DNA from: Cyanobacterium stanieri PCC 7202
GTDB lineage: Bacteria; Cyanobacteriota; Cyanobacteriia; Cyanobacteriales; Cyanobacteriaceae
Length of the DNA: 64,000 nucleotides
Assembly: GCA_000317655.1 (NCBI GenBank)
Contig: CP003940.1
Location: forward strand, 1,488,001 to 1,552,000
Direction: 5' to 3'
The notes beneath the pieces are model-generated. The model saw nothing but the letters and a program-made list of their open reading frames with translations. It was not told the origin of the DNA and made no database searches. Position numbers and translations under genes: made by a program. Positions 30,543-46,794 of this stretch are shown here, one piece after another; positions within the stretch are counted from its first letter, which is position 1; each line of letters begins with the position of its first letter.

Positions 30543-30559
30543 GGTGGGCAATGCCCACC
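30543..30559. repeat. 17-bp palindrome ggtgggcaatgcccacc
   Basis: A perfect seven-base inverted repeat (GGTGGGC/GCCCACC) around aat, ending 25 bp before the dndD-like ATG. A close relative, ggtgggcattgcctacc, occurs at 52943-52959, and a half-copy gggtgggcaat at 59333. It belongs to the family of interspersed GGGCAAT repeats in this genome. No T tract follows. Confidence 0.65.
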
Positions 30560-30583
30560 CTTCCTATTTATTACTCCTCAATA

Positions 30584-32563: not shown

Positions 32564-33553
32564 TTAATTTGTATTACCAAAAAGTTCTAAAGTTTTTTTA
32601 TAAAAAGTACGATTTGCTTGACGATATTCGTCTAATATATGAGGATAAGTAGGACATTCATTGATTAAATCTTCCCAGTTATCCGTAGAACAAAAAAGAT
32701 AATTACCATACCTAAATTCTAAATTAATCTTATTTAAAAAAGTAGTTTTAAAAGGTCTAAATTTTATCCCTGATTTTTTCCATCGAACAACGGAATATAA
32801 ATATGGAGAATGTTTTAAAGTGACAAATTTCGTACTGAAGGGAAAAGCAATTACTTTCCTACCTAATAAAGTACCCCAATAAGCACCATGATAAGAACTT
32901 GTAATAATGGTTTCTCCAGAACCTAAAAAATCTAAAACCTGTTCCAAATTTTGAGTATCATGGGTCATACGAGGTAAATTACCTATCTTTACCTGATATT
33001 TACGATGGGAAAAAACCACAACATCGTGTTTTATTTCCCTTTTACGGTCAAATGCCGGGTGCATACAACTAGCACAAGGCAACCAATCATAATTAAACCC
33101 TGTATCTCGAATACCAATTAAATCAAAATATTTTAAATAAGATAGATAATCAAATTTATTTTTATCTTGTTCTAAATTTTCTAATAAAGTTTGTCCATTT
33201 TTACCACCAGCCGAGTATATTTGCTGTCCTACTCCCCAACTAACCCAATTACCGTTGAAAAGAGATTTTAAATTTTCCATGGCTTTAAAACTACCTAAAA
33301 AAGGGTTAAAAAGAAGTCCACCTCCACCCACAATCAGATGATATTTAACTTTTCCTGCATTTTGTTTAATTTCTTCAAGGGTAATAGAACCACCAAAGCC
33401 ACTTTTTGGCTCAGTAAAATTTGGATCAATTGACCTAATATCAAGGGTTTCTACGGGATAGTTAAATTTGAAATAATGTAGTGGTGATGATGCTAAATCA
33501 CCAATATTTCTGGAATCAACAACATGAGCATTAATAATAACTGTTTTCATCAC
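32564..33553 (-). CDS. Polysaccharide pyruvyltransferase-family protein
   Basis: A 329-aa protein of the family that transfers pyruvate from PEP onto sugar residues of surface polysaccharides, or a related transferase. Visible are INAHVVDSRNIGDLASSP at the N-terminus, the glycine-rich HLIVGGGGLLFNPFLGSF near residues 72-90, and TSSYHGAYWGTLLGRKVIAFPFSTKF near 217-242, the conserved SxHGA-like block. Several Cys lie mid-protein (PCASCMHP). It is the last gene of the nine-gene acyl/glycan cluster, 12 bp after the HTTM gene, and ends one base from the convergent dndD stop. Confidence 0.8.
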   Translation of the reverse strand: MMKTVIINAHVVDSRNIGDLASSPLHYFKFNYPVETLDIRSIDPNFTEPKSGFGGSITLEEIKQNAGKVKYHLIVGGGGLLFNPFLGSFKAMENLKSLFNGNWVSWGVGQQIYSAGGKNGQTLLENLEQDKNKFDYLSYLKYFDLIGIRDTGFNYDWLPCASCMHPAFDRKREIKHDVVVFSHRKYQVKIGNLPRMTHDTQNLEQVLDFLGSGETIITSSYHGAYWGTLLGRKVIAFPFSTKFVTLKHSPYLYSVVRWKKSGIKFRPFKTTFLNKINLEFRYGNYLFCSTDNWEDLINECPTYPHILDEYRQANRTFYKKTLELFGNTN

Positions 33554-33565
33554 ATTTTTAATTAA

Positions 33566-35428
33566 TTATTGACACTGAAACTGAAATTGAAGTTGTTGAT
33601 TGACTTCGATGGTTTCTCCGGGATCTACTGTTCTTTCTTCCATAAAATAAAAGTTAATCTGTTCTAAAGGTCGACTATCCCCATATTGTTGTTGCCATTG
33701 TCGACAAAGATATTCGCCAAAGTAAGGATATAGTTGATTTCCAATATTACGATTTAGATTAATGTAATAGGTTCGCCATTGCATATTGCCATAAAGTCTT
33801 TGGCGATCGCCCAATGTCGGTTTATCGAAACTAATGGGTTGATCAGGGTGTAATAAATTAACTTCCCTACCGTCTGCCAAGACACCTACAATGACGTGCC
33901 ATCCATCATCACGAGGGGGAGAAGGGGCAAAGATTCCCCAACCATTTTGGTCTAAACGTAGTAAATAACCAATCCAGTCAATACGTTGTAAACTACGACT
34001 ACGGGTGACTCTACGTAAAGCTCTGAGGGTAGGGGTATCTTGATCAACGAAATACCAATGATCGGTAAATCCCCTTAAATTCAGAACAAAAATTAAGCCT
34101 AAAAATAATATAGAGATGATACTTTGCCACAGAGGAGTTTTTCCGCTAAATGTTCTAAATAATAGAGGACGAGTTAAAATTCCTGCTGTTTGACGGTTAT
34201 TGGCGATCGCCTCATAAAATCTTTTACCCAACTTCATGATGATGGGTAAGCCCAAAATAGTAGTAAAAATACGAAAGACAGGAGATAAACTGACCACATA
34301 AACAATGGCTTCAAACTTAAAATATCGATTACCCTGCCAATCCATTACCACCCAAGAATTCCATCGCTCCATATCTTCTTGAATCGACACATCACTTTGG
34401 GCAGGTTGTAAAGGGGTATCTGGTAACAATAAAAAGACACGGAGCAGATAAACCACTTTTTTACAAAATCCACAATCCGCATCATAATAGATTTTTAAAC
34501 CAGCTTGAGGTTCACCATAAAATCTTTTTTTCCATCCTTCCCAAACCGAACTCGGAATAAAAGCCAACCAAGATACAATACTCAAAAACGGAAATATACC
34601 TAAATTGAGAGTTAATCCAAAACCAACATGCAACAAAATAAACGTGATTACCGTGGCAGTGCGAAAAAAGTTGGTTTTAACAGGCATGAACAAAAATAAA
34701 GGACCAACCCACTCCAATATCAAGGTAACTAGGGTAAAAAACTGTAAAACAACTAAAGGTAAATTAAGTAACCAAGCCCCTAGCGGAGTAACATATTGAT
34801 CAAAATTAAGGGTGTAATATACCGCCGTTAAATCAGGAAACCAAATATCACTGGTGCTTTTGAACACCGCCGACATGATATAAATAAAACACTGTTGAAT
34901 AGTAAAAGCAATTACCGCCCCCGAAAAAATTCTTTTTGGCACAGAATCAGCCTTTGGATTAAGGGCAATATCCACCGAATAAGCCGCTCCCAAAGGTAAA
35001 AACATGGCCCAAAACAAAACTGTACGTAATACAGAATCCGCAGCAAATAATAAGGCTGGATTGCGGTGGTGAAGAGATACCATTAAAGCCCAAGAGGCGA
35101 TCGTTGCTAAACGGGTTCGATAACCCACTACCATAGCTAACCCAAAAATAGCACCAGCTAGAAACAATAATCCTTGTACAAAAGGCTGTCCACTCAAAAG
35201 ATGTATTGACCAATACCAAGGATCCAAACTTTCAATTAGAGCAGTACGTGGTAATACCCCCTGATCACTATAATGACTCGAAAGATCTGGAAATCTTAGA
35301 AATAAATCAGCAAGAATTACCAATCCCAATCCCATTCTCAATAATGCAAGGGATCTTATGTCCAAGCCATACCGTTTACTTAAACTATTTAGCCAACCCC
35401 ATTTCTTCAAGTTTTTCTGAGTTACCAT
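33566..35428 (-). CDS. HTTM-domain membrane protein fused to a DCC thiol-oxidoreductase domain
   Basis: A 620-aa fusion. The N-terminal half has multiple helices in HTTM (vitamin K-dependent carboxylase-like) arrangement, including ALLRMGLGLVILADLFLRF and VGYRTRLATIASWALMVSLHHRNP. At about residues 313-400 comes a DCC-family domain, IYYDADCGFCKKVVYLLRV, a thioredoxin-like fold with a CxxC redox pair. Two more hydrophobic segments follow, then a soluble C-terminal part (about 470-620) with GIFAPSPPRDDGWHVIVG. The role is unknown; HTTM-DCC neighbours elsewhere suggest membrane redox or lipid chemistry. It lies inside the acyl/glycan cluster. Confidence 0.8.
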   Translation of the reverse strand: MVTQKNLKKWGWLNSLSKRYGLDIRSLALLRMGLGLVILADLFLRFPDLSSHYSDQGVLPRTALIESLDPWYWSIHLLSGQPFVQGLLFLAGAIFGLAMVVGYRTRLATIASWALMVSLHHRNPALLFAADSVLRTVLFWAMFLPLGAAYSVDIALNPKADSVPKRIFSGAVIAFTIQQCFIYIMSAVFKSTSDIWFPDLTAVYYTLNFDQYVTPLGAWLLNLPLVVLQFFTLVTLILEWVGPLFLFMPVKTNFFRTATVITFILLHVGFGLTLNLGIFPFLSIVSWLAFIPSSVWEGWKKRFYGEPQAGLKIYYDADCGFCKKVVYLLRVFLLLPDTPLQPAQSDVSIQEDMERWNSWVVMDWQGNRYFKFEAIVYVVSLSPVFRIFTTILGLPIIMKLGKRFYEAIANNRQTAGILTRPLLFRTFSGKTPLWQSIISILFLGLIFVLNLRGFTDHWYFVDQDTPTLRALRRVTRSRSLQRIDWIGYLLRLDQNGWGIFAPSPPRDDGWHVIVGVLADGREVNLLHPDQPISFDKPTLGDRQRLYGNMQWRTYYINLNRNIGNQLYPYFGEYLCRQWQQQYGDSRPLEQINFYFMEERTVDPGETIEVNQQLQFQFQCQ

Positions 35429-35477
35429 GCCCCTATTTGTTTTTTATTTTTTATATAAATGACAAATTATTAACATA

Positions 35478-36425
35478 CTATTTACCCTCTACATCATGGG
35501 AAGCCACAGAAAACTGGGGCAACGCCATTTGAAGTTCTCTCACTAGCTGCTCAGAGCGAACAGTTCTCTCCGATATTTTTAAATGATAATGGGTATCTGC
35601 AAATAAATCAGAATTGTCATAAATATTTAGAGTTTCCTTATCGTAGAGAGTCGGAGCAATCTCCGACAAAGCATCTGCTGTTTTTTGAATATTGGCAATA
35701 GTATCTTGATCATCACTACCATATACCACTGGTAAAGAGAATACCAACGTTCCCCCCCTTGCTTCTATATCTTTTTTAAACTGACGTAAACTGTTAATAG
35801 AATGTTGGGAAATCGAAGAACGAATGGGCATTTTCCACCATGCAGAATTACGAGGCAACTCAATAGTAGCATCTCCTCTGGAGGTTAAAGGATCTCCATA
35901 ATAGTCAAGTCTTCCCTCTGTCACGATGTCTTGAGTTGTTTTTATTAAAGGACGTACAGACGGTATTCCCAAAGTTACAGTGGTTTCTAATACTTCTTTG
36001 ATCGGAATTCCCCCTAAACCCGGACGACCAATTACAATCCCAAAAGTGGGAGAAAGTGTATCTGTACCCTCATCATTCAAAAGAAAAGAATACTCTGGAA
36101 TTACTAACATAATATCTCCAGGTCTAACTTTTTCTAACATAGTAGTTAAAAGTAAATCTAAACCAATACCTCCATTCAGACCAAAATTAACCACAGGCAT
36201 ACCCAAAGATTCTGCCATTACGTCTGAGTTGATCGTATACTGAACCCCAGAACCTCCAGCAACAATAATTTGAGGTTCATCTATTTCTTCTACTAATCTT
36301 GATTTAACTACATACATTGTTCTAAGCCAACTAGCATAACCACTAAGATAAACATTGTAAATAAATCCTACTGACCATAACCCTGTTACTACTAATGCCC
36401 AAGTCCATAAATGAGAACGTTTCAT
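35478..36425 (-). CDS. SGNH-like membrane-anchored protein
   Basis: A 315-aa protein with one N-terminal membrane anchor (about 8-28) and an extracytoplasmic SGNH/GDSL-like domain. Block I looks like IIVAGGSGVQYTINSDVM with Ser at the nucleophile position near residue 59. NFGLNGGIGLDLLL resembles block II-III, and the C-terminal DLFADTHYHLK supplies an Asp-His pair near 280. Such proteins often pair with MBOAT acyltransferases and carry acyl groups onto sugars or polymers, as DltD and AlgX/AlgJ do. The MBOAT gene is three genes upstream, and gaps to both flanking genes are short. The catalytic call is inferred. Confidence 0.7.
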   Translation of the reverse strand: MKRSHLWTWALVVTGLWSVGFIYNVYLSGYASWLRTMYVVKSRLVEEIDEPQIIVAGGSGVQYTINSDVMAESLGMPVVNFGLNGGIGLDLLLTTMLEKVRPGDIMLVIPEYSFLLNDEGTDTLSPTFGIVIGRPGLGGIPIKEVLETTVTLGIPSVRPLIKTTQDIVTEGRLDYYGDPLTSRGDATIELPRNSAWWKMPIRSSISQHSINSLRQFKKDIEARGGTLVFSLPVVYGSDDQDTIANIQKTADALSEIAPTLYDKETLNIYDNSDLFADTHYHLKISERTVRSEQLVRELQMALPQFSVASHDVEGK

Positions 36426-36452
36426 AATTATTAAACTCCTGATTTAACATTT

Positions 36453-38087
36453 TTATTCAAGAATATAAACATAAGCTGTTTCTGTCTCTAAAAAAAGGCT
36501 TGAGGATCTTTCAATACTTGGATATTCAGATACAGTTAAAATAGGCCATAGTTTCAAATTTCCTTCATAGGAAGGTTCTACAAAATATGTCTCTTCATAG
36601 TTAGTGTCGTTCAAAAAATTACTTTCAATGTTTAAAAATCTTTTGGGATGTATTACATAGTTACCAGATGCACAAACATCTATAATTTCAATGTCATTTT
36701 CTACAACATAAGTATTAATATAATTATACTTATTCCTTGTCTCTCTCCTTCTGGCAATTCTGGGATCGCATATACTTGAATTGGAAGGAATTATATCTAC
36801 AATTTCAGCTATTTCTTTAGTATTTAATAAACGATTATTACCATATTTAGCTATCATAAAATTATAATTATAAATTAAGTTATTAATCATAGATAATATT
36901 AATACTATGGAGGTAAAACCATAGATAAATAACTTAAATTTTAAACGAAAATTAGTGTAGGCTAAAGTTATAACTGCAAAAATAATTGGGATAGATAAGA
37001 CCAATATTTTATAATAAAAGACTGATTGATCTGCATCGATATTTGCTGCTGCAATTAAAAATATTCCTAAACTAGCAATCATAATATACCAAATATATTG
37101 ATTCCCTTTAAATTTGACAATACCGAAATAAGTAATTAAACAAAGAAAACTTATAGATATTAATAAATATAGTATGGATGAATTCCAAAAATAAGCCTGA
37201 CGCATTATATTGACATAATTCATTACTAGATTATAAATTTTTTCTGATACATAACCAACAAATGATACATCTGTAGAACTAGATCCAGAGCGAATTGTTT
37301 GTAAAATAGCTTTGCTATTGCGAAATCCCGTTGCTAATTCCATTTTCCAATAAGGAATTAAAGATATAAAAGTAGATAAACAGCTTACTATTGGTAATAA
37401 AAATAATTTTATTTCTCTTGTTTCTTTATGTATTTTAAATAGATATAAAATTATGCTGATAATAAAAACAATAGGCATTACAAACAATGTGGAGGTATGT
37501 AAACTAAGTAGAATAGCGAATACAATACCATTTAAAGCCCATAAAAAACATTTTATACTCCAAGAAAATTCATTTTTCATTTGTAAGTCATATAAAAGTA
37601 CAAAAGAAAAAAAGAAAAAAGGAATTGAACTCGGATTCCACTGAAAATTGCTAATAAAAATATCTCCAAACAGAAAACTATACCAAAATCCTGCTAATCC
37701 ACTAAAAAAAACTCTTTGAGAATTATCTATATTTTCTAAAAGTTTATAAACTAAAAATATGAATAATGGAATAGATAAAAATGAAAATAAAGCATTAGGA
37801 AATGCTTGAAAAACAGGGTCTCCTCCGAAGATAGTAAAGGGAAAAAAGAGGTAATAATATAAGGGTAAAAGATAATGGCCTCCAAGACCTAATCCATAAG
37901 CCCGTGGACCTAATAAAGGAAACTCTCCATCCCAAATTCCCATGACTACAAAAGCATCTCTAATTTGATCTGGATCTGGCCCTATGTCAAAAGTAACATA
38001 TTGAAAAACGGCCACTATTCTTGTAAAAAATCCGAATAGTATGGCTATTACGATCAATATAACTCCGAAGCATTTAAGTTGTTTCAT
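36453..38087 (-). CDS. GT-C-type membrane glycosyltransferase
   Basis: A 544-aa protein with about ten membrane helices. The N-terminal extracytoplasmic loop contains FDIGPDPDQIRDAF near residue 40, where GT-C enzymes carry their catalytic acid, and GLGGHYLLPLYYYLF follows. GT-C enzymes transfer sugars from polyprenyl-phosphate donors outside the membrane. The soluble C-terminal region (about 440-544) is of unknown fold. Base composition is more AT-rich than neighbours. It begins three bases after the GT39-like gene, so the two are probably cotranslated and may act on the same acceptor. Specificity is unknown. Confidence 0.7.
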   Translation of the reverse strand: MKQLKCFGVILIVIAILFGFFTRIVAVFQYVTFDIGPDPDQIRDAFVVMGIWDGEFPLLGPRAYGLGLGGHYLLPLYYYLFFPFTIFGGDPVFQAFPNALFSFLSIPLFIFLVYKLLENIDNSQRVFFSGLAGFWYSFLFGDIFISNFQWNPSSIPFFFFSFVLLYDLQMKNEFSWSIKCFLWALNGIVFAILLSLHTSTLFVMPIVFIISIILYLFKIHKETREIKLFLLPIVSCLSTFISLIPYWKMELATGFRNSKAILQTIRSGSSSTDVSFVGYVSEKIYNLVMNYVNIMRQAYFWNSSILYLLISISFLCLITYFGIVKFKGNQYIWYIMIASLGIFLIAAANIDADQSVFYYKILVLSIPIIFAVITLAYTNFRLKFKLFIYGFTSIVLILSMINNLIYNYNFMIAKYGNNRLLNTKEIAEIVDIIPSNSSICDPRIARRRETRNKYNYINTYVVENDIEIIDVCASGNYVIHPKRFLNIESNFLNDTNYEETYFVEPSYEGNLKLWPILTVSEYPSIERSSSLFLETETAYVYILE

Positions 38088-38090
38088 AGT

Positions 38091-39641
38091 TTAGATAGAA
38101 ATTTCAACTAATTTAAAATATTCTATACCTTGAGAATCTATAACTGTATAAATTTCTTTCCAATTGTACCCTTTCGATTCAAGTGTTACGATCTCTTCTG
38201 GACGAAGAATATAGAGGTATTCTGTAATTAAAATGTCCTGTTTAGATATAGACATAAGATGATAATTACCGAGAGAATAAACTTTGTCCTTGGAATCTCT
38301 AACCCAGGGAGGAATGGGAGATTGTTGATATTTTTGTGGAGAATATTGGGTGTAAAAAGGAATCTGAGAGATAAAATCATGTATGGCATAACAACCACTA
38401 TTAGTATCACTACTCAGCACAAAACCACCATAAGAACTTTTTTTGGAAAAGTCAATTGCTTCCTTGAGTCCATAATTCCATAGCTTTGCGGCTTCAGGTG
38501 GATAGTTGACAAAATATTTATAAGAAAAAAATGTCACATTGCTCATTACAATAAGTCCAGTAGCTAAAGCTATTGTTTGTCTTTTATAACTCCAATTATC
38601 TATTAAGTAGGCAATACCAATGGCTGAAATTATTGCAAACAAAGAAACTCCTATTATTGAGCGTTGAGGACTTTCTGAACCAACAAAAATTGCCGGGATA
38701 GGATATAACAACAGCCAAGGTAGTAAGATCATTTTTGTTTTCACATTATCTCGAAGCAATTTTAGAATCCCTAAAGGAACTGTTATTATTTCAAATAAAT
38801 AAAGTTCACCCATTTGAGATGGATTTTCTGTGATTACTGATTTTCCGTTGAAAAATAAAAAATTAGGATTAAAATGTGAAAAGTAATTTTTTAAAATTAC
38901 AAAAGAATTATTTTCTATACCAGTTCCTCTGGCTCTGACCATCCCTTCTGGAGAAATCCAAAACTTTAATAAAGGTATAAAAATAAATAAGAATAAGATT
39001 AAAGAAAGAGTGGTCTCTTTTTTATGTTGCCATAAGTGTTTCCAAAAAATAGTGGTTAAACAAAGTAAAAAAAGTGGTACAAAAACTCTAGCAGAATTGT
39101 ACGTGTATAGACTTAATGCAAACACAAAACTGCTTAAAGGGAGATATTTGGGTTGTTTAAAGCTTTTAACGAAAAATAAAACTCCTAAGCAAAATAGTAA
39201 AGGTAGTAAATTAAGCCTAAAGGCAATTCGATTAAAGTGTATGTGCCATGGACTGATAGATAAAAGTAGGGCTGCAATTAATCCAGTTTTTTTATTGAGC
39301 ATTTCCTTTGCAAGGAAATAAACTGTTAAAACAGTTAATACTCCAAGTAAAACAGATGGAAGTCTCGTTGCGAATTCGTTAAGACCCAAAATTTTAATAA
39401 ATGGTATCATTAAATAGAAATATAAAGCCTCTTTCGCATCATTTTTCAGAGGGTTAATAAACATGGGCAAAAATTTACCGTATCTATCTCGTAAAGTTTC
39501 GGCAATTGAATAAGATTCGTAAGCGTTCGCCGCTTCATCACAAGAAAAACCACCTGGAATGGATGCTAGCAAAAAAATTCTTAAAAAAATGGCTAGTGCT
39601 AAGATAAGCAATAAAGAAATAAAAGTATTATTTTTATTCAT
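38091..39641 (-). CDS. GT39/ArnT-like membrane glycosyltransferase
   Basis: A 516-aa multi-span protein of the dolichyl/undecaprenyl-phosphate sugar transferase type. The first extracytoplasmic loop has SIPGGFSCDEAANAYESYS near residues 29-47, with the Asp-Glu pair typical of GT39-family enzymes; LPSVLLGVLTVLTVYFLAKEML and SISPWHIHFNRIAFRLNLLP follow as in the ArnT/PMT_2 family. The soluble C-terminal region (about 390-516) may bind the acceptor. It lies in the acyl/glycan cluster, 158 bp downstream of the MBOAT gene. No promoter was recognised in that gap. Confidence 0.78.
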   Translation of the reverse strand: MNKNNTFISLLLILALAIFLRIFLLASIPGGFSCDEAANAYESYSIAETLRDRYGKFLPMFINPLKNDAKEALYFYLMIPFIKILGLNEFATRLPSVLLGVLTVLTVYFLAKEMLNKKTGLIAALLLSISPWHIHFNRIAFRLNLLPLLFCLGVLFFVKSFKQPKYLPLSSFVFALSLYTYNSARVFVPLFLLCLTTIFWKHLWQHKKETTLSLILFLFIFIPLLKFWISPEGMVRARGTGIENNSFVILKNYFSHFNPNFLFFNGKSVITENPSQMGELYLFEIITVPLGILKLLRDNVKTKMILLPWLLLYPIPAIFVGSESPQRSIIGVSLFAIISAIGIAYLIDNWSYKRQTIALATGLIVMSNVTFFSYKYFVNYPPEAAKLWNYGLKEAIDFSKKSSYGGFVLSSDTNSGCYAIHDFISQIPFYTQYSPQKYQQSPIPPWVRDSKDKVYSLGNYHLMSISKQDILITEYLYILRPEEIVTLESKGYNWKEIYTVIDSQGIEYFKLVEISI

Positions 39642-39799
39642 GACTCTTAATTTTATTAAAACTGGAAAATCAAAACCAGAAAAAACTTTATTTTTTAATA
39701 TAGCTTAGAGATAAGACTCTCAAGAATTATTTTGTCTCTAGCTAAATATTTTTTTTGTTTTGTAAATAACAATTAAACGTATTTATCTTTTCATGGTTG

Positions 39800-41257
39800 T
39801 TAAAATGCAAAATAAATAAACTCCGAAGGCTGATTTGCGGCTAAAAGAATAGTTAAACCCAATAAACCTCTAGCAATCCAAGGTGATAATAATAATTCGT
39901 ATTCAAATTTTTTACGCCAAATTGCCATAAATTCTAATAATAGAACTGTTAAAGATAAAAATAATATAAAAATCAGAGTCCATCCTTCATTAACGTTATA
40001 AGACTGTAACCAGTCAATTAAATTACTGGGGGTATAATTCCAGGGCAGGGCAATGGTTTTTAATTTGGTTAACAATCTTCTGGTATCGGTTTCCATAAAA
40101 AATAGACATCCTAAAACCACTGAAGAAAAAGTTAAAGCCCAACTTACAAATTCAGATCTCTTAAAGTATTTATTACTAAATTTTTGAAATGGTCTGCCCA
40201 AATAACGCAGTATTAGTAATAAACTGCCATGGTAAGCACCCCAAATAATAAAATTCCATGCCGCCCCATGCCAAAATCCTGAGAGGGTGAAGGTGATGAA
40301 CAAGAATAGGGGAGCAAATTGTTTTTGAGAACCCATCAGGGGAATAAAGACATAGTCTCTAAACCATGTACTGAGGGTAACGTGCCATCTACGCCAAAAT
40401 TCGTTAATACTCTGGGATGTATATGGTGCAAGGAAATTAACTGTTAATCTGATACCCAAAATTTTGGCAATACCTAATGCGACGAAGCTATAACCTGCAA
40501 AGTCAAAATAAATTCTGAGGGTGAAAAGGAAGGCAAAAAACCAGATTATCCAAGGGTTGGCACTGTTACTTAAATCAATGTAGGGCGCAATATTATCAGC
40601 TAAGACAAATTTCATAAAAGCACCCAAGGAAATCCAGCGAAATCCCATTTCAAAGTTTTCGGCAGTAAATTTAAAACGGAAGTTACTGATTTGGGGTAGT
40701 AAGTCCACTCGTCGTTCAATGGGGCCGGCTACAATTTGGGGGAAAAAGGCGATAAAGTTAACATAGTCCAAAAATGCGATCGCACTTTTTTTCTTTGCTT
40801 TGAGAGAATCGACTACAAAAGCGATCATCTGGAAAGTATAAAAAGAAACCCCAGGGGGAATTTGATTTCTGATGGGGATAGGAGAAGCACTTTGCCAATT
40901 GTCAGGTACACTGACAAATAAGCCAATAACATCCTCCACAAAAAAGGTCAAATACTTAAAATAGGCTAAAATTGCAATATCAAAAACAATAATAAAACCA
41001 GCAATTAACTTAGCTTGATTGCCTTCTTTTTTGAGCATAAATTGCACTAAAACGTAGTTAACAATTATCTCAATAACAAAAACAACAAAACTAGAACGAC
41101 TAGCATTATAAAACAGCAATAAAGAAAGAGAAACAATCCCTAAACTGTCAAAAAAGCCCCTCCAGAGGTTCATTCTTTGAGCAAGATAACGAACCCCAAA
41201 AAAAGGAATGCTAAAAAGGATAAAAATCCACCAAAAGGAAAATTCTGAATAGTTCAA
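39800..41257 (-). CDS. MBOAT-family O-acyltransferase (AlgI-like)
   Basis: A 485-aa polytopic membrane acyltransferase. The family segment is clear: FYTFQMIAFVVDSLK, FFPQIVAGPIERRVDLLPQI, NEFWRRWHVTLSTWFRDYVFIPLMG near 295-320, and the catalytic-His block TFTLSGFWHGAAWNFIIWGAYHG near 335-357. AlgI-type enzymes move acyl groups across the membrane to sugars of surface polymers. It follows the ACP gene by 47 bp, so the ACP or its loading enzyme may supply the acyl chain, as DltC does for DltB. Acetyl transfer is an alternative. Full length, no damage seen. Confidence 0.9.
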   Translation of the reverse strand: MNYSEFSFWWIFILFSIPFFGVRYLAQRMNLWRGFFDSLGIVSLSLLLFYNASRSSFVVFVIEIIVNYVLVQFMLKKEGNQAKLIAGFIIVFDIAILAYFKYLTFFVEDVIGLFVSVPDNWQSASPIPIRNQIPPGVSFYTFQMIAFVVDSLKAKKKSAIAFLDYVNFIAFFPQIVAGPIERRVDLLPQISNFRFKFTAENFEMGFRWISLGAFMKFVLADNIAPYIDLSNSANPWIIWFFAFLFTLRIYFDFAGYSFVALGIAKILGIRLTVNFLAPYTSQSINEFWRRWHVTLSTWFRDYVFIPLMGSQKQFAPLFLFITFTLSGFWHGAAWNFIIWGAYHGSLLLILRYLGRPFQKFSNKYFKRSEFVSWALTFSSVVLGCLFFMETDTRRLLTKLKTIALPWNYTPSNLIDWLQSYNVNEGWTLIFILFLSLTVLLLEFMAIWRKKFEYELLLSPWIARGLLGLTILLAANQPSEFIYFAF

Positions 41258-41304
41258 GGCTTTATTTTGAATTATTTATCAATATTAAATAATAAAAAAG
41301 TGAA

Positions 41305-41667
41305 TTAACGACCCATTAAGCGACCAAATAATCCTGACTTTTTCTCCCCAGCCAAGACTGGTTCTGCCGATTTTGCTGGTGTTACAGGAGTTTCATTTGC
41401 TGTGAGAGAAATATTTTCTAAGTCAAAATTTTCTACTAAATAAGCAGATGACTGAGCGATGGTAGGATAATCCCAAAATAAAGTGGAAGGTAACTCCAAA
41501 TCTAACCAATCTTCTAAGTCTCCTACCATTGTTACCGCATCAATAGAATCCAAACCATAACGGGTCAAAGACTCATTTACACTAATATTTTCAGGATCTA
41601 GTGACAACTGTTCTGATAATTGATCAATAAGCCAATTTTGTACAATTTTAATTTGGGAATTAGTCAT
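41305..41667 (-). CDS. Free-standing acyl carrier protein
   Basis: A 120-aa protein with a phosphopantetheine-binding domain at residues 5-85. The attachment Ser41 is in TRYGLDSIDAVTMVGDLEDWL, close to the PKS/FAAL-associated carrier type rather than to the housekeeping AcpP. FWDYPTIAQSSAYLVE completes helix four. A 35-residue tail ends in the basic KKSGLFGRLMGR, which might bind membrane or partner. Placed between the ACAD-like gene (39 bp) and the MBOAT gene (47 bp), it probably carries the acyl chain activated by the FAAL. Confidence 0.9.
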   Translation of the reverse strand: MTNSQIKIVQNWLIDQLSEQLSLDPENISVNESLTRYGLDSIDAVTMVGDLEDWLDLELPSTLFWDYPTIAQSSAYLVENFDLENISLTANETPVTPAKSAEPVLAGEKKSGLFGRLMGR

Positions 41668-41706
41668 TTTTTTAAATCCTCATTATATAGTTGATATTAT
41701 TATTTT

Positions 41707-43464
41707 TTAGTTTTTTGCTAACTGAAAAGGTACTATAGAAAACACTTTTTCTGTTTTGTATAGTGTAACCATTTCTTTACTCAAATTGTTCTCATATTCT
41801 TCATAAATGTTATAAGGAATTGAGCGGATAGCATAAAGAAGACGATTTAATGCTAAAACTAACCATTCACCTTTTGCGAAAAATTCCCCTAAATTTTCTC
41901 GATTATATAACCACATAAATAAACAGCTTGTTGCTGTATGTAATGTGCAATATTTTTTGGCTAGTTCAAAGGTTTCTGGAGATTGATGATGTCCATACTC
42001 AAAATTGGATTGACTGATGGTCTGGTCATGATTATTCAATTCCAGCAACACTATATCACCCAATCTAATTAATTCTTTCAAAACCGCAGGTTCTACTTCG
42101 TAAGTATTTTGTAAATCAGCTAATTTTTGTAGGCCAATCTCTAATCCTTGTAATACATGATCTGCCCCCTTACCAAATAATGCTAGTTGATCCAACTGTA
42201 GTGTCGGTGGTTTTAGATCAAGAGAAAATATGGTTTTCAGATTTTCTTCGATCGCCCTTAAACGTTTTTCATTCAGTCTTTGACGAGTTTTAGTAATTTG
42301 TCGAAACTGTAAAATCAGGGCGTGTAAATTAACCACCGTACTGCCATCAAAAACACTAATAATGGCATTATCCCGTAATACCTTTTGAAAGATACCAGAA
42401 TCATGCTCTTCGCGCATATAAAAACGAGAACCCAATACCGCAGAGATATTGTTGATCATGGTTTCTAGCTGAGTAGTGACAAAATATTTGACCACCGCAG
42501 ACCAAACGCTAAACTGTTCGGGTACTACATGAAAACCACGACAAGAAGCAATGGTTTCACAATCACAGATGAGAATATCCAAAAAAGCATCGCTCAAAAC
42601 CTTACGAGGTTGGGGTAAATCAAATACCCTTTCTTCATATACCCGACGATGGAGAGCAAATTTTAGGGTGGTTCTTAGGGCTGTGTCCGCCGCCCCATGG
42701 GAAAAACCAGAGCAAAGGGTGCGGGTAATTTGAAAGCCTTTGAGGGCGATTTCTAACCCTTCTCCTTCTTTGCCGATAAGCATGGAATCGGGAACAAAAC
42801 AATCTTTAAAACCGATACCACTCATATCCGATGCTCGAATACCATGGGTTAAAATTTTCGGTAGATTATAGTAATTTTCCGAATTAATCTTACTCTTTTC
42901 CACCATAAACAGAGATAAACACCTACCCCCATTATCATCGGCAGTTTTTGCCAAAATATAGGACATCCCAGAAATGGTTGCCCTATTAATGGGCCATTTT
43001 TCACCGTTGAGGACATAACCCCCATCCACCTTGGTGGCAGTCAATTCACCCCCTACCAAATCGGCTCCATGATCTTTTTCGGAGTACCCCAAACACATCG
43101 CCCCATGCTCGTTTCTAATATACTCCGAGAGTCGATCTTTTTGCTCTTGAGTTCCTGCCATCCAAGTTATAAATGACCAGAATAGGGTTGTAAAAGCGAT
43201 ACCGATAGTTTGATCTCTTCTTGATAAAACCCTGACGATGGCAATAAATTCTTCAAAGGAGGTAAATTTACCGCCACAGTTTTCGGGGATGTAGTAATCT
43301 TGTAAATTCCATTGATAGAGCCAGTCAATTTCTTGATGGGGAAATTGCTCACTTTCATCGATTTGAATTACTTTCTCATAGGACATCAAACTATCTCCGT
43401 GGATAGGATTACCCAAATCCTGTTCTAGCTTTTCTGGAGTATGATATTGTGGCAAAGGGTTCAT
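41707..43464 (-). CDS. Acyl-CoA dehydrogenase-family protein (probable acyl-ACP oxidase/dehydrogenase)
   Basis: A 585-aa flavoprotein-like ACAD. The core spans about residues 35-400, with AMCLGYSEKDHGADLVGGELTAT and GGYVLNGEKWPI at the FAD-binding middle domain, and ALKGFQITRTLCSGFSHGAA in the C-terminal helical domain. About 170 further residues follow the core, longer than the usual 380-aa enzymes. In the segment that aligns with the common catalytic YEGT loop this protein reads FDGSTVV, so Asp replaces Glu, a possible change of activity. Between FAAL and ACP genes it may introduce a double bond into an ACP-bound acyl chain. Confidence 0.82.
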   Translation of the reverse strand: MNPLPQYHTPEKLEQDLGNPIHGDSLMSYEKVIQIDESEQFPHQEIDWLYQWNLQDYYIPENCGGKFTSFEEFIAIVRVLSRRDQTIGIAFTTLFWSFITWMAGTQEQKDRLSEYIRNEHGAMCLGYSEKDHGADLVGGELTATKVDGGYVLNGEKWPINRATISGMSYILAKTADDNGGRCLSLFMVEKSKINSENYYNLPKILTHGIRASDMSGIGFKDCFVPDSMLIGKEGEGLEIALKGFQITRTLCSGFSHGAADTALRTTLKFALHRRVYEERVFDLPQPRKVLSDAFLDILICDCETIASCRGFHVVPEQFSVWSAVVKYFVTTQLETMINNISAVLGSRFYMREEHDSGIFQKVLRDNAIISVFDGSTVVNLHALILQFRQITKTRQRLNEKRLRAIEENLKTIFSLDLKPPTLQLDQLALFGKGADHVLQGLEIGLQKLADLQNTYEVEPAVLKELIRLGDIVLLELNNHDQTISQSNFEYGHHQSPETFELAKKYCTLHTATSCLFMWLYNRENLGEFFAKGEWLVLALNRLLYAIRSIPYNIYEEYENNLSKEMVTLYKTEKVFSIVPFQLAKN

Positions 43465-43795
43465 AATTCAGATTTTGTTTACTTGAATAATGGCTATCTC
43501 AATTCCATCGGTTAAGAAAGAATCTGATTTTTGATCGGTTTATAAAGAATTATATTCAATTTTCTGTTGCTTTTTAGATGATACTTAAGTAATTATCATA
43601 ATAGCAAGATAAATCGAAATACTAATTTTGATATTTAGAAGTATCGTTGCATTGATAACAATCATCAGGAAAGGTTTTTCGAGAGTTTAGAAAAATATGA
43701 GCTATTAGACTATATTTTAAGTCCGATTTTCAGAAAAAATCCCTATGTTTTTGTGAAGTTTTGATGAAGTTTTTTGATAATTCTATTAATTTTTT
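43465..43795. other. 331-bp noncoding spacer between the FAAL and ACAD genes
   Basis: No credible frame, RNA gene or repeat was seen. The stretch is very AT-rich with several short direct words (aagttttgatgaagttttttga near 43756). It may hold the promoter for the eight-gene ACAD-to-pyruvyltransferase run, but I could not pick out -35/-10 elements with confidence. Confidence 0.5.
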
Positions 43796-45535
43796 TTACT
43801 TTTCAACCCAAGAGGCGATCGCATTTATCTCTCCACGTAAGAATTTTTGCTTACATACAGAGCGTTGAATCTTGCCACTAGCGGTTTTCGTAATAGTGCC
43901 AGATTTTGCTAAAACGACCCCATAAACCTGTAATTCATGATCTTCGGCGATGATTTGACGAATATCAGCAATTAACTGCTCAGGATTATCTATATCAGCT
44001 TTACGCTCTATTTCTTGGACGACTACTAATTTTTCTTCCCCTGCTACCTCCACAGAAAAAGCCGCCCCATAATCCGAACGCAGGGCAGGATTTAAACTTT
44101 GTACCGTCCATTCTATATCTTGGGGATAATGGTTCGTACCACGAATAATGATCAAATCCTTCATCCGACCATTAATATATAATTCGCCATCGTACATAAA
44201 CCCTAAATCCCCTGTGCGCAAAAAAGCCCCTTCTTGACTATCTTGGAGATAGGCTCGAAATGTATGATTACTCTCCTCCTCCCTTTGCCAGTAACCCTGA
44301 GCTACACTAGGATCTTTTACCCAGATTTCCCCCACTTCATCATCGGCACAACGGGTTAAACTATTTGGATGGGCGATCGCAACTTCAGTCTCACATACCA
44401 ACCTACCACAACTGGGCAAAATTCTCACCCCTTCACCATCGGCATCCTTAACCACCACCTTATTTTGTTCCAAACTAGCGGTATCCACCGCACAAAAAAC
44501 AGGTTTTGTACCCTTGGCCTTAGTGGAAACCAGTAGGGTATATTCCGCCAAGCCGTAGGCAGGGGCAAAGGTTTCCCAACGAAAACCCCCAGAAGCGAAT
44601 TTGTCAGCAAACTTTAACATAACTTCTGGGTTAATGGGTTCAGCAGCATTTCCTGCCGCCTCCCACTTACTCAAATCCAAATCCCCTACCTGAGAATCTT
44701 TAACCTTTTTACAACATAAATCATAGGCAAAGTTAGGGGCTTGGGAATGGGTAACGCCATATTTACTGATATTTTTCAACCACTGTAGGGGGCGTTTAAT
44801 AAAAGAGAAAGGAGACATAATATAACAACGATGACCATTATATAAAGGAGTCATCAAACCCTCCACTAAGCCATAATCATGGAAATAGGGCATCCAAGTT
44901 AAACTAATACTGTTTTCATCATAACCACAAGCCCTTTGTAAGTAACGACAATGGTGGATTAAATTATGATGGGTGAGCATTACCCCTTTAGGAGTGGCAG
45001 TAGAACCAGAGGTATATTGTAGGTAAGCAATGGTATCGGGAGTAATATCAGGTTTTTGCCACGTATCCGCCGAATCTAAGTCAATTTTTTCAATATCAAC
45101 GATGTTCATCTCCTGAAATTCGGGAAACTCATCGGCTACCCCTTCTATGAGTTCCAATATTTTTTGATTGGTGAAGATAAGGGAGGCTTTTGCATCTTTG
45201 ACAATGGCTCTAAGACGGGGTAAAGTTCGTTTTAATCTCCCTGATTCTGGGGGAGGCACAGGAATGGCAATGACATCCCCTAATAAACAGCCACAGAAAG
45301 CGCTAACTACTTCTAATCCTTGGGGATATAATAATAAGGCTCTTTCTCCTTGCCAATTGTTTTTTTGAATGGTAAATGCGATCGCCCTTGCCTGACGATA
45401 TAACATACTATAAGTTAAAGGCTCAGATTCTCTTTTTCCATCAATCAAAAAAGTATATCCTATCTTCTCTGGTTGATTTTTAGCCCTCAGCTCAAGTAAA
45501 TCAATTAAAGTATTTATTTCTATTGCTTTATTCAT
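43796..45535 (-). CDS. Fatty acyl-AMP ligase (FAAL)
   Basis: A 579-aa ANL-superfamily enzyme that adenylates a fatty acid and passes it to an acyl carrier protein. P-loop motif YLQYTSGSTATPKGVMLTHHN lies near residues 170-190. WMPYFHDYGLVEGLMTPLYNG (about 213-233) and PINPEVMLKFADKFASGGFRWETFAPAYGLAEYTL are characteristic of the FAAL group rather than CoA ligases, as is LRTGDLGFMYDGELYINGRMKDLIIIRGTNHYPQDIE. The C-terminal KTASGKIQR contains the adenylation Lys. The associated ACP (41305) is the likely acceptor. It heads the cluster. Confidence 0.93.
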   Translation of the reverse strand: MNKAIEINTLIDLLELRAKNQPEKIGYTFLIDGKRESEPLTYSMLYRQARAIAFTIQKNNWQGERALLLYPQGLEVVSAFCGCLLGDVIAIPVPPPESGRLKRTLPRLRAIVKDAKASLIFTNQKILELIEGVADEFPEFQEMNIVDIEKIDLDSADTWQKPDITPDTIAYLQYTSGSTATPKGVMLTHHNLIHHCRYLQRACGYDENSISLTWMPYFHDYGLVEGLMTPLYNGHRCYIMSPFSFIKRPLQWLKNISKYGVTHSQAPNFAYDLCCKKVKDSQVGDLDLSKWEAAGNAAEPINPEVMLKFADKFASGGFRWETFAPAYGLAEYTLLVSTKAKGTKPVFCAVDTASLEQNKVVVKDADGEGVRILPSCGRLVCETEVAIAHPNSLTRCADDEVGEIWVKDPSVAQGYWQREEESNHTFRAYLQDSQEGAFLRTGDLGFMYDGELYINGRMKDLIIIRGTNHYPQDIEWTVQSLNPALRSDYGAAFSVEVAGEEKLVVVQEIERKADIDNPEQLIADIRQIIAEDHELQVYGVVLAKSGTITKTASGKIQRSVCKQKFLRGEINAIASWVEK

Positions 45536-45627: not shown

Positions 45628-46794
45628 ATGAATAGCAAAAAACGTCATCGAGTATGTATTATAGGAGGTGGTTTTGGCGGATTATATACGGCCATTGAAC
45701 TAAACAAATTAGACAAAAAAAGATCATTGGAAATTATTTTAATTGATCAAAATTCACATTTCTTATTTACTCCCTTACTATACGAAGCCATCACAGAAGA
45801 AATCACTCACTGGGAAATTGCCCCTAGCTTTGATTTACTACTAAGAAAAACAGCAATTACTTTTATTAATAAGAAAGTTATTAATATAGACTTTGACAAT
45901 CAACAAATATTTTATGAAGATCAAGACAGTATCAACTATGATTATCTGGTTTTAGCCGTTGGACAAAAATCTTATTTTGCAGTGGAAGGAGCAAAGGAAT
46001 ATGCCCATTCTTTTAAAACCTTAAAAGATGTTTTTAGGTTAGAACATACCATGGAAAAATTAGCAAATATTCCTCAAAATAAATTTAATGTAACCGTTGT
46101 TGGTGCAGGGGCGAATGGAGTAGAAATAGCAGGAAAAATTACTGATAAATTAAAAGATAAAGCTCAAGTAATTCTCATTGATAGAGGAATAGAAATATTA
46201 AAAAATTTTCCCCGAGGAATGCAACAATATGCGACAAAATCTCTGATTAAAAGAAATATTCAAATTTATTTAGAGACTACTATCAATAAGGTAGAAGAGC
46301 ATAAAATTCATTTTACAGATCACCTAAATCAAGACTATGAAATTGATTTTAACTTAACTCTCTGGACAGTGGGAAATATGACCCCAAAATGGATTAATCA
46401 ATTAAATTTATCTCAAGATGAACAAGGAAAAATATTAACTAAACCGACATTTCAATTATGGAATTTTGAAAATGTTTTTGCCATTGGTGATTTAGTATCA
46501 CTGATAGATAAACAGGGGAAAAAAGTTCCTGCAAAGGCTCAAGCCGCTTTTCAAGGAAGCCATATTTTAGCCCACAATATCATGGCATTATCGCAACACA
46601 AAAAATTAAAACTTTTCTCCTATCGTCACCTAGGAGATATGATGACAGTGGGAATTAACAATGATATTATTAGTGTGGCAGGTATTACCATGACTGGTTT
46701 TATAGCCAGTATCATTCGCAAGTGGGCTTATATTTTCAGAATGCCTACCTTCAACCATTGTTTAGAAGTGGTAAAACATAGATTAAAAGGTTAA
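45628..46794 (+). CDS. ndbB: Type II NAD(P)H dehydrogenase, NdbB-like
   Basis: A 388-aa flavoprotein with two dinucleotide folds: FAD site VCIIGGGFGGLYTAIEL at residues 8-24 and NAD(P)H site VTVVGAGANGVEIAGKI near 156-172. FAIGDLVSL near residue 290 is the second FAD contact. HFLFTPLLYEAITEEITHWEIAP resembles NdbB, which in cyanobacteria reduces demethylphylloquinone before its final methylation; NdbA and NdbC are larger or differ here. Together with menB it could serve phylloquinone synthesis, but the two genes are 45 kb apart. It is divergent from the FAAL gene. Confidence 0.75.
   Translation: MNSKKRHRVCIIGGGFGGLYTAIELNKLDKKRSLEIILIDQNSHFLFTPLLYEAITEEITHWEIAPSFDLLLRKTAITFINKKVINIDFDNQQIFYEDQDSINYDYLVLAVGQKSYFAVEGAKEYAHSFKTLKDVFRLEHTMEKLANIPQNKFNVTVVGAGANGVEIAGKITDKLKDKAQVILIDRGIEILKNFPRGMQQYATKSLIKRNIQIYLETTINKVEEHKIHFTDHLNQDYEIDFNLTLWTVGNMTPKWINQLNLSQDEQGKILTKPTFQLWNFENVFAIGDLVSLIDKQGKKVPAKAQAAFQGSHILAHNIMALSQHKKLKLFSYRHLGDMMTVGINNDIISVAGITMTGFIASIIRKWAYIFRMPTFNHCLEVVKHRLKG

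Follow-up and report, generated by a model that had tools for sequence, protein, structure and literature searches.

A gene cluster of Cyanobacterium stanieri PCC 7202 looks like one undescribed pathway, in which a fatty acid would be activated, loaded onto a carrier protein and passed through the membrane. It lies in the window analysed here, a stretch of 64,000 nucleotides from contig CP003940.1. Its core genes encode a fatty acyl-AMP ligase (FAAL), an acyl-CoA dehydrogenase family protein (ACAD), an ACP, a membrane-bound O-acyltransferase (MBOAT), an SGNH-fold protein, a membrane protein termed HTTM-DCC and a type II NADH:quinone oxidoreductase (NDH2). That these genes serve one pathway is almost certain, and a fatty-acyl relay on a carrier protein, resembling the Dlt pathway in its logic, is the preferred reading of how they act (probability roughly 0.6). 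Co-occurrence of the core, a family or fold for each part and conserved candidate catalytic residues were observed. In the literature searched, no description of FAAL-ACAD-ACP paired with MBOAT, SGNH, HTTM and NDH2 proteins was found, which agrees with the original prediction that the set was previously undescribed.

Nine minus-strand open reading frames with mostly short gaps, as predicted from the sequence, are present at positions 32564 to 45535. The intergenic gaps range from 3 to 331 bp (12, 49, 27, 3, 158, 47, 39 and 331 bp from the pyruvyltransferase to the FAAL gene). Most family assignments of the original prediction were recovered by Pfam (AMP-binding, Acyl-CoA_dh, PP-binding, MBOAT, PMT_2 for one of the two GT-C proteins, DCC), the pyruvyltransferase by a weak PS_pyruv_trans match. 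The SGNH assignment was borne out by predicted fold and the HTTM assignment by fold and homologs; the second GT-C protein (GT_B) and the SGNH protein gave no match in Pfam or NCBIfam. Likewise as predicted, no PKS or NRPS gene was seen at 28-50 kb, judged by ORF length and a Pfam scan of ten proteins. Scans for promoters (62 sites, 58.2 expected) and terminators (13 sites, 9.9 expected) were uninformative for transcript structure. The functional unit is not identical to the nine genes: the NDH2 gene (45628..46794, plus strand), divergent from the FAAL gene and beyond the predicted interval, belongs to the system, and the pyruvyltransferase gene probably does not.

Close orthologs of FAAL, ACAD, MBOAT, SGNH protein and HTTM-DCC were found in the identical ten of 194 cyanobacterial genomes and in no others; this profiling covered these five proteins, and positive genomes were set at gaps in the E-values with no rule fixed in advance. 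FAAL orthologs in the nine other positive genomes are 61-74% identical to the window protein (42 genomes at E<=1e-150, ten of them at >=61% identity, the next at 54%). The corresponding values are 60-75% for ACAD (17 genomes at E<=1e-20, the next at <=28%) and 62-77% for MBOAT (14 genomes at E<=1e-60, the next best at 39%). For HTTM, 13 genomes were obtained at E<=1e-40, those after the ten reaching 40-43% identity, and SGNH orthologs at E<1e-80 occur in positive genomes only, the next match having an E-value of 2.6e-6. Scattering of the genes in relatives, which the original prediction had named as evidence against itself, was found in six of the ten positive genomes, where the core is split over two to four separate places and yet is complete. 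Retention of all core pieces despite scattering favours a functional link rather than weakening it. Furthermore, NDH2 adjoins a core gene in 10/10 positive genomes, as determined in 23 selected genomes (10 positive, 13 negative).

Forty-two synteny loci, the window excluded, contain ACP open reading frames of at least 90 codons in 34 cases, MBOAT in 31, FAAL in 27, NDH2 in 21 (20 without L025, where the housekeeping copy is present), SGNH in 18 and HTTM in 17; these loci include one of PKS type (L058) and are partly redundant: L027 and L050 belong to a single genome, L030 and L031 to a single assembly, and certain genomes of the L020-L028 range may appear again in the named loci. Many loci are truncated by contig ends, and a few are one-sided. 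Of the cluster genes, just ACAD and ACP stand together in the six loci of Microcystis type. An Sfp-type phosphopantetheinyl transferase is encoded near the cluster in seven loci, of which two share a genome; the copy scanned is that of L048. The HTTM gene of G131 was not counted as broken, since its in-frame TAA lies outside an intact 616-codon frame (L122:9452-11299).

At the front end of the pathway, the FAAL (43796..45535, minus strand) showed its best PDB match to 7r7e, with 510 bits over residues 8-576, followed by FadD23/28/32-type FAALs. Its best full-length NCBIfam matches include several FAAL models, all below their cut-offs. CoA-rejection elements of FAALs comprise the FAAL-specific helix, Phe265 and Met217 in RsFAAL numbering (PMC8460268); 7r7e was taken as RsFAAL because its Met217 and Phe265 fit this numbering. 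In the window FAAL, the segment of the FAAL-specific helix is ungapped (residues 244-247), Phe269 is aligned with Phe265, and Tyr221 replaces Met217. The enzyme is predicted to activate a fatty acid and to load it onto the ACP. The ACAD (41707..43464, minus strand), whose N-terminal, middle and C-terminal domains all exceeded the Pfam cut-offs, is probably an acyl-ACP dehydrogenase. The catalytic Glu of ACADs is usually located in a YEGT motif. All nine aligned sequences carry Asp at this position (Asp373, FDGS), and ten more distant relatives (L058-L063, L068-L072) have Asp in six cases and Glu in four; oxidation is uncertain because Asp stands in place of the catalytic Glu. The ACP (41305..41667, minus strand; Pfam PP-binding, 58.9 bits) contains a GLDS motif with Ser41 and an aromatic C-terminal tail. 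This tail was counted in 32 of 38 cluster ACPs (31/35 by pattern and L049 by eye, with L027, L050 and L053 tailless) versus none of ten relatives from other loci, a set that is not independent and in which five come from Acinetobacter.

The FAAL-ACAD-ACP cassette is portable and elsewhere accompanies NRPS genes (Cellvibrio, Acinetobacter) or PKS genes (Nostoc sp. FACHB-110, Tumebacillus). These lipopeptide or polyketide starter cassettes hold the same three genes in identical order, their ACADs being 36-47% identical to the window ACAD. As the comparison covered the best 80 of 336 relatives, the taxa named give a minimum for its distribution. NRPS or PKS genes follow there, whereas MBOAT, SGNH, NDH2 and HTTM genes follow in the cluster; moreover, the starter cassettes' ACPs lack the tail of the cluster ACPs. 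Membership of the three genes in an already described pathway, which the original prediction had regarded as counter-evidence, was encountered in part: the occurrence of the cassette with NRPS or PKS genes places the front end in a known kind of pathway. Another likeness concerns mycobactin biosynthesis, in which MbtM is the FAAL, MbtL the ACP, and MbtK is not known to be an MBOAT. For the lipid side chain of mycobactin, MbtN has been demonstrated to act as fatty acyl dehydrogenase and MbtK as acyltransferase (PMC4376628). As proposed for the cluster, the fatty chain is dehydrogenated and then passed to an acceptor by an acyltransferase; unlike in the cluster proposal, it is a siderophore that receives the chain. 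The match of the MbtN model to the window ACAD was weak (22.4 bits).

For the membrane stage, transfer of the acyl group through the membrane is proposed for the MBOAT (39800..41257, minus strand), a Pfam MBOAT protein of DltB/AlgI type. Its sequence relatives in the PDB are DltB only, and His330 of its WHG motif, invariant in 18 orthologs, aligned with DltB His336, a residue placed at the active site (PMC11035591). The DltB model TIGR04091 scored 175.7 bits on the window MBOAT, below the cut-off of 375, and 175-187 bits on cluster MBOATs versus 144-160 bits on second MBOATs of other loci. Since the second MBOATs match as well, an acyl-ACP donor cannot be read from this resemblance; enzymes of AlgI type might share it, and DltB identity by HMM alone was rejected as nonspecific. 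The predicted model of the SGNH protein (35478..36425, minus strand; pLDDT 87) has an N-terminal helix. A fold search gave a best esterase match with Z 12.9 over 185 residues (rmsd 4.4) and also PatB (Z 11.2). Ser59, Asp277, His279 and His281 are invariant in 17 sequences; given the unusual Asp/His spacing, either His may be the catalytic one. DltD gave no sequence match and was absent among the fold matches listed; a DltD/AlgJ-like role is proposed for the SGNH protein.

The proposed division of roles equals that of the Dlt system for teichoic acid D-alanylation (DltA, DltC, DltB, DltD): both comprise an adenylating ligase, a carrier with a phosphopantetheine Ser, an MBOAT with aligned active-site His and a single-helix SGNH-like protein. 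The cluster differs in that its ligase acts on a fatty acid, whereas DltA is a D-Ala ligase, and in the additional ACAD, NDH2, HTTM-DCC and GT-C proteins. Teichoic acids are not expected in Gram-negative cyanobacteria. With a FAAL as adenylating enzyme, the cluster may follow the Dlt mode of action without being a Dlt system. MBOAT and SGNH proteins are also combined in the O-acetylation pairs AlgI/AlgJ and PatA/PatB, which are not known to use a dedicated FAAL or ACP.

The HTTM-DCC protein (33566..35428, minus strand; Pfam DCC1-like) appears to adopt the fold of GGCX, the human vitamin K-dependent gamma-carboxylase. Foldseek matches at E<=1e-3 were GGCX only, and the model, of moderate pLDDT (74.7), aligned with GGCX (VIA) at Z 20.8 over 380 residues (rmsd 5.9), spanning the membrane part and the C-terminal part, the next non-GGCX match reaching 8.2. 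No GGCX sequence match was found. Pfam HTTM did not match the window protein or two other scanned cluster members; it scored above cut-off in the homologs L132 and L137, which are 40-42% identical to the window protein. Lys190, Cys319 and Cys322 are invariant in 15 cluster sequences, Lys190 also in distant homologs. For GGCX, the catalytic residue is Lys218 (PMC9146348), to which Lys190 may correspond, although no residue-level alignment with HTTM-DCC was obtained. Best PDB matches of NDH2 were of the NDH-2 type (9mqy, 5na1, 4nwz, 5kmq, 5na4, 5kmp, 9pxk, titled NADH dehydrogenase or pyridine nucleotide-disulfide oxidoreductase), followed by FSP1 entries, and the cluster-type copy is separate from the housekeeping copy in a tree. 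Likeness to GGCX thus comprises the fold, an invariant membrane-domain Lys and the genetic partnership with a quinone reductase of NDH-2 type; a difference is the inserted CGFC (DCC) domain. The modelled fold suggests a quinone-linked step involving NDH2.

Two linked accessory genes encode GT_A, a PMT_2-type GT-C glycosyltransferase (38091..39641, minus strand), and GT_B, a multi-pass membrane protein assigned to GT-C by the original prediction (36453..38087, minus strand). GC content is low across these genes (0.289-0.301 at 36-40 kb). GT_A occurs in nine of 194 genomes (six positive, three negative) and GT_B in five, all positive. In L114, L116 and L049, GT_B has MBOAT2 and another SGNH-like gene as neighbours, and GT-C genes come after the operon in some other lineages. 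The acceptor is most likely a glycan or glycolipid, perhaps extended by the GT-C enzymes; this predicted acceptor stands in weaker form, since half of the positive genomes are without accessory glycosyltransferase genes, which weakens the evidence for it.

We infer the reactions, their order, the acceptor and the product as follows. In step 1, the FAAL would adenylate a fatty acid and load it onto the cluster ACP, which may dock at the membrane via its aromatic tail. In step 2, the ACAD would probably oxidise (desaturate) the acyl-ACP at C2-C3. In step 3, the MBOAT would accept the ACP-bound acyl group on the cytoplasmic side; jointly with the SGNH protein, which is membrane-anchored, it would then deliver this group to an extracytoplasmic acceptor. 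In step 4, assigned tentatively, NDH2 and the GGCX-like HTTM-DCC would form a quinone-linked membrane redox branch accepting electrons from the ACAD and/or oxidising the exported product. Support for the relay of steps 1 and 3 comes from the five proteins sharing ten genomes, unlinked in six, from NDH2 beside a core gene in all ten, from a FAAL with most CoA-rejection elements, a tailed ACP with Ser41, a DltB-related MBOAT with its His, an SGNH fold with Ser, Asp and His, and the nearby Sfp-type phosphopantetheinyl transferase. It is weakened by the six tailless ACPs among 38 and by Microcystis-type loci that keep only ACAD and ACP together. Judged from sequence, the predicted single pathway of fatty acid activation, ACP loading, likely oxidation and membrane O-acyl transfer is supported. 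Not foreseen in the original prediction were the Dlt-like logic of the relay, the resemblance of HTTM to GGCX in fold, NDH2 as a partner and the portability of the cassette.

The strongest competitor, considered unlikely, retains one pathway and divides it into two acyl branches: an unlinked acyltransferase would receive the altered fatty acid made by FAAL-ACAD-ACP, and the MBOAT/SGNH pair would do no more than O-acetylate an accompanying polysaccharide, so that no acyl-ACP would reach the MBOAT. Alginate-type MBOAT/SGNH pairs are acetylating systems, and a match to the DltB model does not by itself mark an MBOAT as carrier-fed. In G095 and G097, the MBOAT gene lies with SGNH and NDH2 apart from ACAD-ACP, which is neutral or mildly in favour of this division. 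However, the MBOAT gene directly follows the ACP gene in most loci holding both, even in the scattered genomes G143, G105 and G111, and no other acyltransferase recurs in the core. Far less probable is the full nine-gene proposal of an acylated and pyruvylated glycan. The pyruvyltransferase-like gene (32564..33553, minus strand; Pfam PS_pyruv_trans, 26.2 bits at a cut-off of 25.3) follows HTTM-DCC in the same orientation after a gap of 12 bp, but of the 11 among 194 genomes carrying it only the window's own is positive, and it was found in none of the 42 compared loci. Pyruvylation as a step of the system was rejected because the ten other carriers of the gene all lack the system; the predicted unit thus loses this gene and gains NDH2, while its core co-occurs.

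Very improbable, too, is that FAAL-ACAD-ACP supplies the starter unit of an NRPS or PKS whose genes lie at another site, with the membrane genes as chance neighbours. The cassette relatives next to NRPS or PKS genes accord with it, as does the statement of a review that stand-alone FAALs usually feed such systems (PMC11837247). Against it, FAAL, ACAD, MBOAT, SGNH and HTTM share the same ten genomes even where unlinked, and an orphan starter is disfavoured by this core co-occurrence. The same review reports a stand-alone FAAL of an olefin synthase for Cyanobacterium stanieri PCC 7202 (PMC11837247), which would make the window FAAL a candidate; this identity is barely credible. Another FAAL, 43-52% identical to the window FAAL, is encoded elsewhere in the genome (C1:303370-305075), its second part within a 2474-codon open frame of PKS-type length, and orthologs of the window FAAL track the MBOAT/SGNH/HTTM set.

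Extending the relay reading, the cluster could form a cyanobacterial counterpart of the vitamin K cycle in the envelope; its products would be envelope glycolipids, acylated and modified by oxidation, that represent a novel class. NDH2 would reduce phylloquinone, HTTM would use the hydroquinone and oxygen for strong-base chemistry on an alpha,beta-unsaturated acyl group that was ACP-derived and exported beforehand by MBOAT/SGNH, and the inserted CGFC domain would recycle the oxidised quinone. Taken jointly, these assumptions are improbable.

The gene set is small, was co-inherited across the sample and is found in cultured cyanobacteria. Little is known about the role of bacterial GGCX homologs, and the cluster would provide a bacterial setting with named genetic partners for the function of a GGCX-like HTTM protein. 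If the relay is true, fatty acids would reach the cell surface on a carrier route of Dlt type, and FAALs would gain a role in envelope acylation that involves neither NRPS nor PKS.

The nine minus-strand genes claimed for positions 32564-45535 of the window are present there, separated by intergenic gaps of 3-331 bp. They were assigned to a FAAL, an acyl-CoA dehydrogenase-like protein (ACAD), an ACP, an MBOAT acyltransferase, a PMT_2 GT-C protein (GT_A), an HTTM-DCC protein, a second, putative GT-C gene (GT_B), an SGNH-like protein and a pyruvyltransferase-like protein. The polysaccharide pyruvyltransferase match in Pfam is weak, and no family match was obtained in Pfam and NCBIfam for the membrane protein GT_B and the SGNH-like protein. 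The region 36001-40000, containing both GT-C genes, shows a G+C content down to 0.29-0.30 compared to 0.33-0.42 in the rest of the window and possibly represents foreign or fast-evolving DNA. A 670-codon gene (30551-32563), which we take to encode an ATPase-like, DndD/SMC-like protein, ends 1 base from the end of the convergent pyruvyltransferase gene. The genome holding the window comprises one contig of 3,163,381 bases.

Eight window proteins were each searched against a common sample of 194 cyanobacterial genomes, with the E-value gap before the next match as the cut for close orthologs of five of them; remoter FAALs, MBOATs and HTTM paralogs of other genomes were left out of the positive count. 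Close orthologs of ACAD, MBOAT, the SGNH protein, FAAL and HTTM-DCC occurred in the identical ten genomes, namely the organism's own (G000) and G060, G074, G095, G097, G105, G111, G131, G143 and G191, spread over six families. At the thresholds used, ACAD, MBOAT and SGNH had no match in the same-genus genome G056 or in the five other sampled genomes of the same family. The core is contiguous in G000, G060, G074 and G191, and is split into two places in G131, three in G105, G111 and G143, and four in G095 and G097. Scattering in relatives had been named in the original prediction as a point against a common pathway; the genes are indeed scattered in six of the ten genomes, but the five core proteins remain co-present. 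That the genes occur together even where they are unlinked is the best argument for one pathway, and we consider it very probable (about 0.95) that the core genes form one coherent pathway. Among the accessory genes, GT_B was found in five genomes, all of them positive, and GT_A in nine (six positive, three negative). The pyruvyltransferase, carried by 11 of the 194 genomes with the organism's own as the sole positive one, is not retained as a pathway member.

An ACAD profile scan with one genome per species yielded 79 loci, taken as the best of 336 relatives. Across the 42 cyanobacterial loci compared, the order FAAL-ACAD-ACP-MBOAT-SGNH-NDH2-HTTM recurs, followed in several by a second MBOAT and a second SGNH-like gene (group c14). 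Second MBOAT genes accompany the system at loci L035, L036, L045, L046, L048, L049, L055, L114 and L116, most of which continue with one or two more SGNH-like genes featuring a GSSR motif and a weak DUF1574 match; only one MBOAT is present in the genome of the window. Some loci continue with GT-C genes (L027/L050, L048, L049), and the GT-C match of L061 is weak, below the Pfam cut-off. The gene orders HTTM-MBOAT2-c14-GT2-GT_B (L116) and GT_B-MBOAT2-c14-c14 (L114) associate GT_B with the extended system also in lineages other than that of the window. Furthermore, a gene of group c7 lies near the cluster in seven loci, two from one genome; the copy scanned, from L048, matched phosphopantetheinyl transferase in Pfam. 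In six Microcystis-type loci ACAD and ACP alone are still adjacent, and in two such genomes (G095, G097) the remaining core genes are located at other sites.

The window FAAL keeps two of the three checkable CoA-rejection elements, as described in passages of PMC8460268, which makes transfer of the fatty chain to the ACP likely. Another FAAL of the genome (G000:C1:303370-305075; L109, L110), outside the window, consists of two overlapping open frames, the second of 2474 codons, and is probably an olefin synthase FAAL; this split gene is not quite the stand-alone FAAL reported for PCC 7202 in passages of the review PMC11837247. The window ACP (41305-41667) ends in SGLFGRLMGR, and such an aromatic, amphipathic C-terminal tail is present in 32 of 38 cluster ACPs and in none of ten relatives from other loci, including those of NRPS/PKS type; it would fit membrane docking and is a possible membrane anchor. 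The catalytic residue of ACADs is usually Glu; Asp373 occupies this position in the window protein, several relatives likewise carrying Asp and others Glu. DltB proteins are the sole PDB sequence relatives of the MBOAT, whose His330 aligns with DltB His336. According to passages of PMC11035591, DltC sits on the cytoplasmic face of DltB at a distance of about 20 angstroms to His336; the same passages call DltD's role unclear. In the SGNH protein, modelled with high confidence, an N-terminal helix accompanies an SGNH hydrolase fold; Ser59, Asp277, His279 and His281 are invariant. FAAL, ACP, MBOAT and SGNH protein would together cover all four functions of a Dlt relay (ligase, carrier, MBOAT and SGNH protein), with a fatty acid instead of D-alanine. 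The system is not assigned to Dlt, since the ligase is a FAAL rather than DltA and the MBOAT falls below the DltB model cut-off.

The HTTM-DCC model (pLDDT 74.7, built from 15 sequences) matched GGCX as sole Foldseek hit at E<=1e-3, and structure comparison gave a Z score of 20.8 (380 residues, rmsd 5.9), the next unrelated match reaching 8.2. An inserted domain (approximately residues 313-413) bears a CGFC motif, its CxxC being kept in all 15 aligned cluster forms; by eye, the homologs L132, L133 and L137 are devoid of this domain. HTTM paralogs L134 (G145), L135 (G143) and L136 (G105) possess, likewise by eye, a DCC domain without CxxC. Invariant Lys190 is a candidate equivalent of GGCX Lys218, which starts vitamin K chemistry according to passages of PMC9146348. 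NDH2 (45628-46794, plus strand), divergent from FAAL and related to NDH-2 quinone reductases by PDB matches, was looked for in a chosen set of 23 genomes. All ten positive genomes and two of the 13 negative ones (G002, G027) have a second copy (E<1e-60), and one copy adjoins a core gene in every positive genome. Of the 21 non-cluster copies in a 39-sequence tree, 19 formed one group (support 100/100) excluding all 18 cluster copies; the other two, which are the additional copies from G002 and G027, fell among the cluster copies, for which a single clade was not recovered, and the window's NDH2 forms a long branch of unsure exact position. NDH2 would be a natural partner of the GGCX-like HTTM-DCC, and this putative redox branch may remove the electrons of ACAD or oxidise the exported product.

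In scans of a single locus each, remote ACAD relatives were found between FAAL and ACP beside NRPS genes in Cellvibrio and Acinetobacter and beside PKS genes in Nostoc sp. FACHB-110 and Tumebacillus, indicating that the cyanobacterial operon joins a front end of known kind to a different back end. The possibility raised originally, that FAAL, ACAD and ACP belong to a described pathway, accordingly holds in part, the front end being of a kind seen in known pathways. Near FAAL-ACAD-ACP of Acinetobacter (L062:15990-19661) and a gammaproteobacterial MAG (L072:11926-15405), a fusion of an MMPL transporter with a LolA-like domain is encoded, which might serve such lipids as a further way of export. 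Among L020-L028, G131 is the closest match for the window FAAL, ACAD, ACP and MBOAT (69-77%); the nearest relatives of the window HTTM are L053, L061 and L073 (57-60%). This points to a mosaic history of the window cluster.

Open-licence papers were searched for FAAL together with MBOAT (or membrane-bound O-acyltransferase), for FAAL together with DltB and DltD, and for HTTM together with DCC or cyanobacteria; none of the papers listed describes the set, and the FAAL review PMC11837247 contains none of the terms MBOAT, DltA and polysaccharide. The initial view, that of knowing no characterised system with this set, agrees with the open-licence papers searched, and the pathway is, as far as could be searched, undescribed. 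In it, a known type of front end goes together with transfer by a Dlt-like logic and with a partner resembling GGCX; each enzyme class was already known, and it is their combination that is new.
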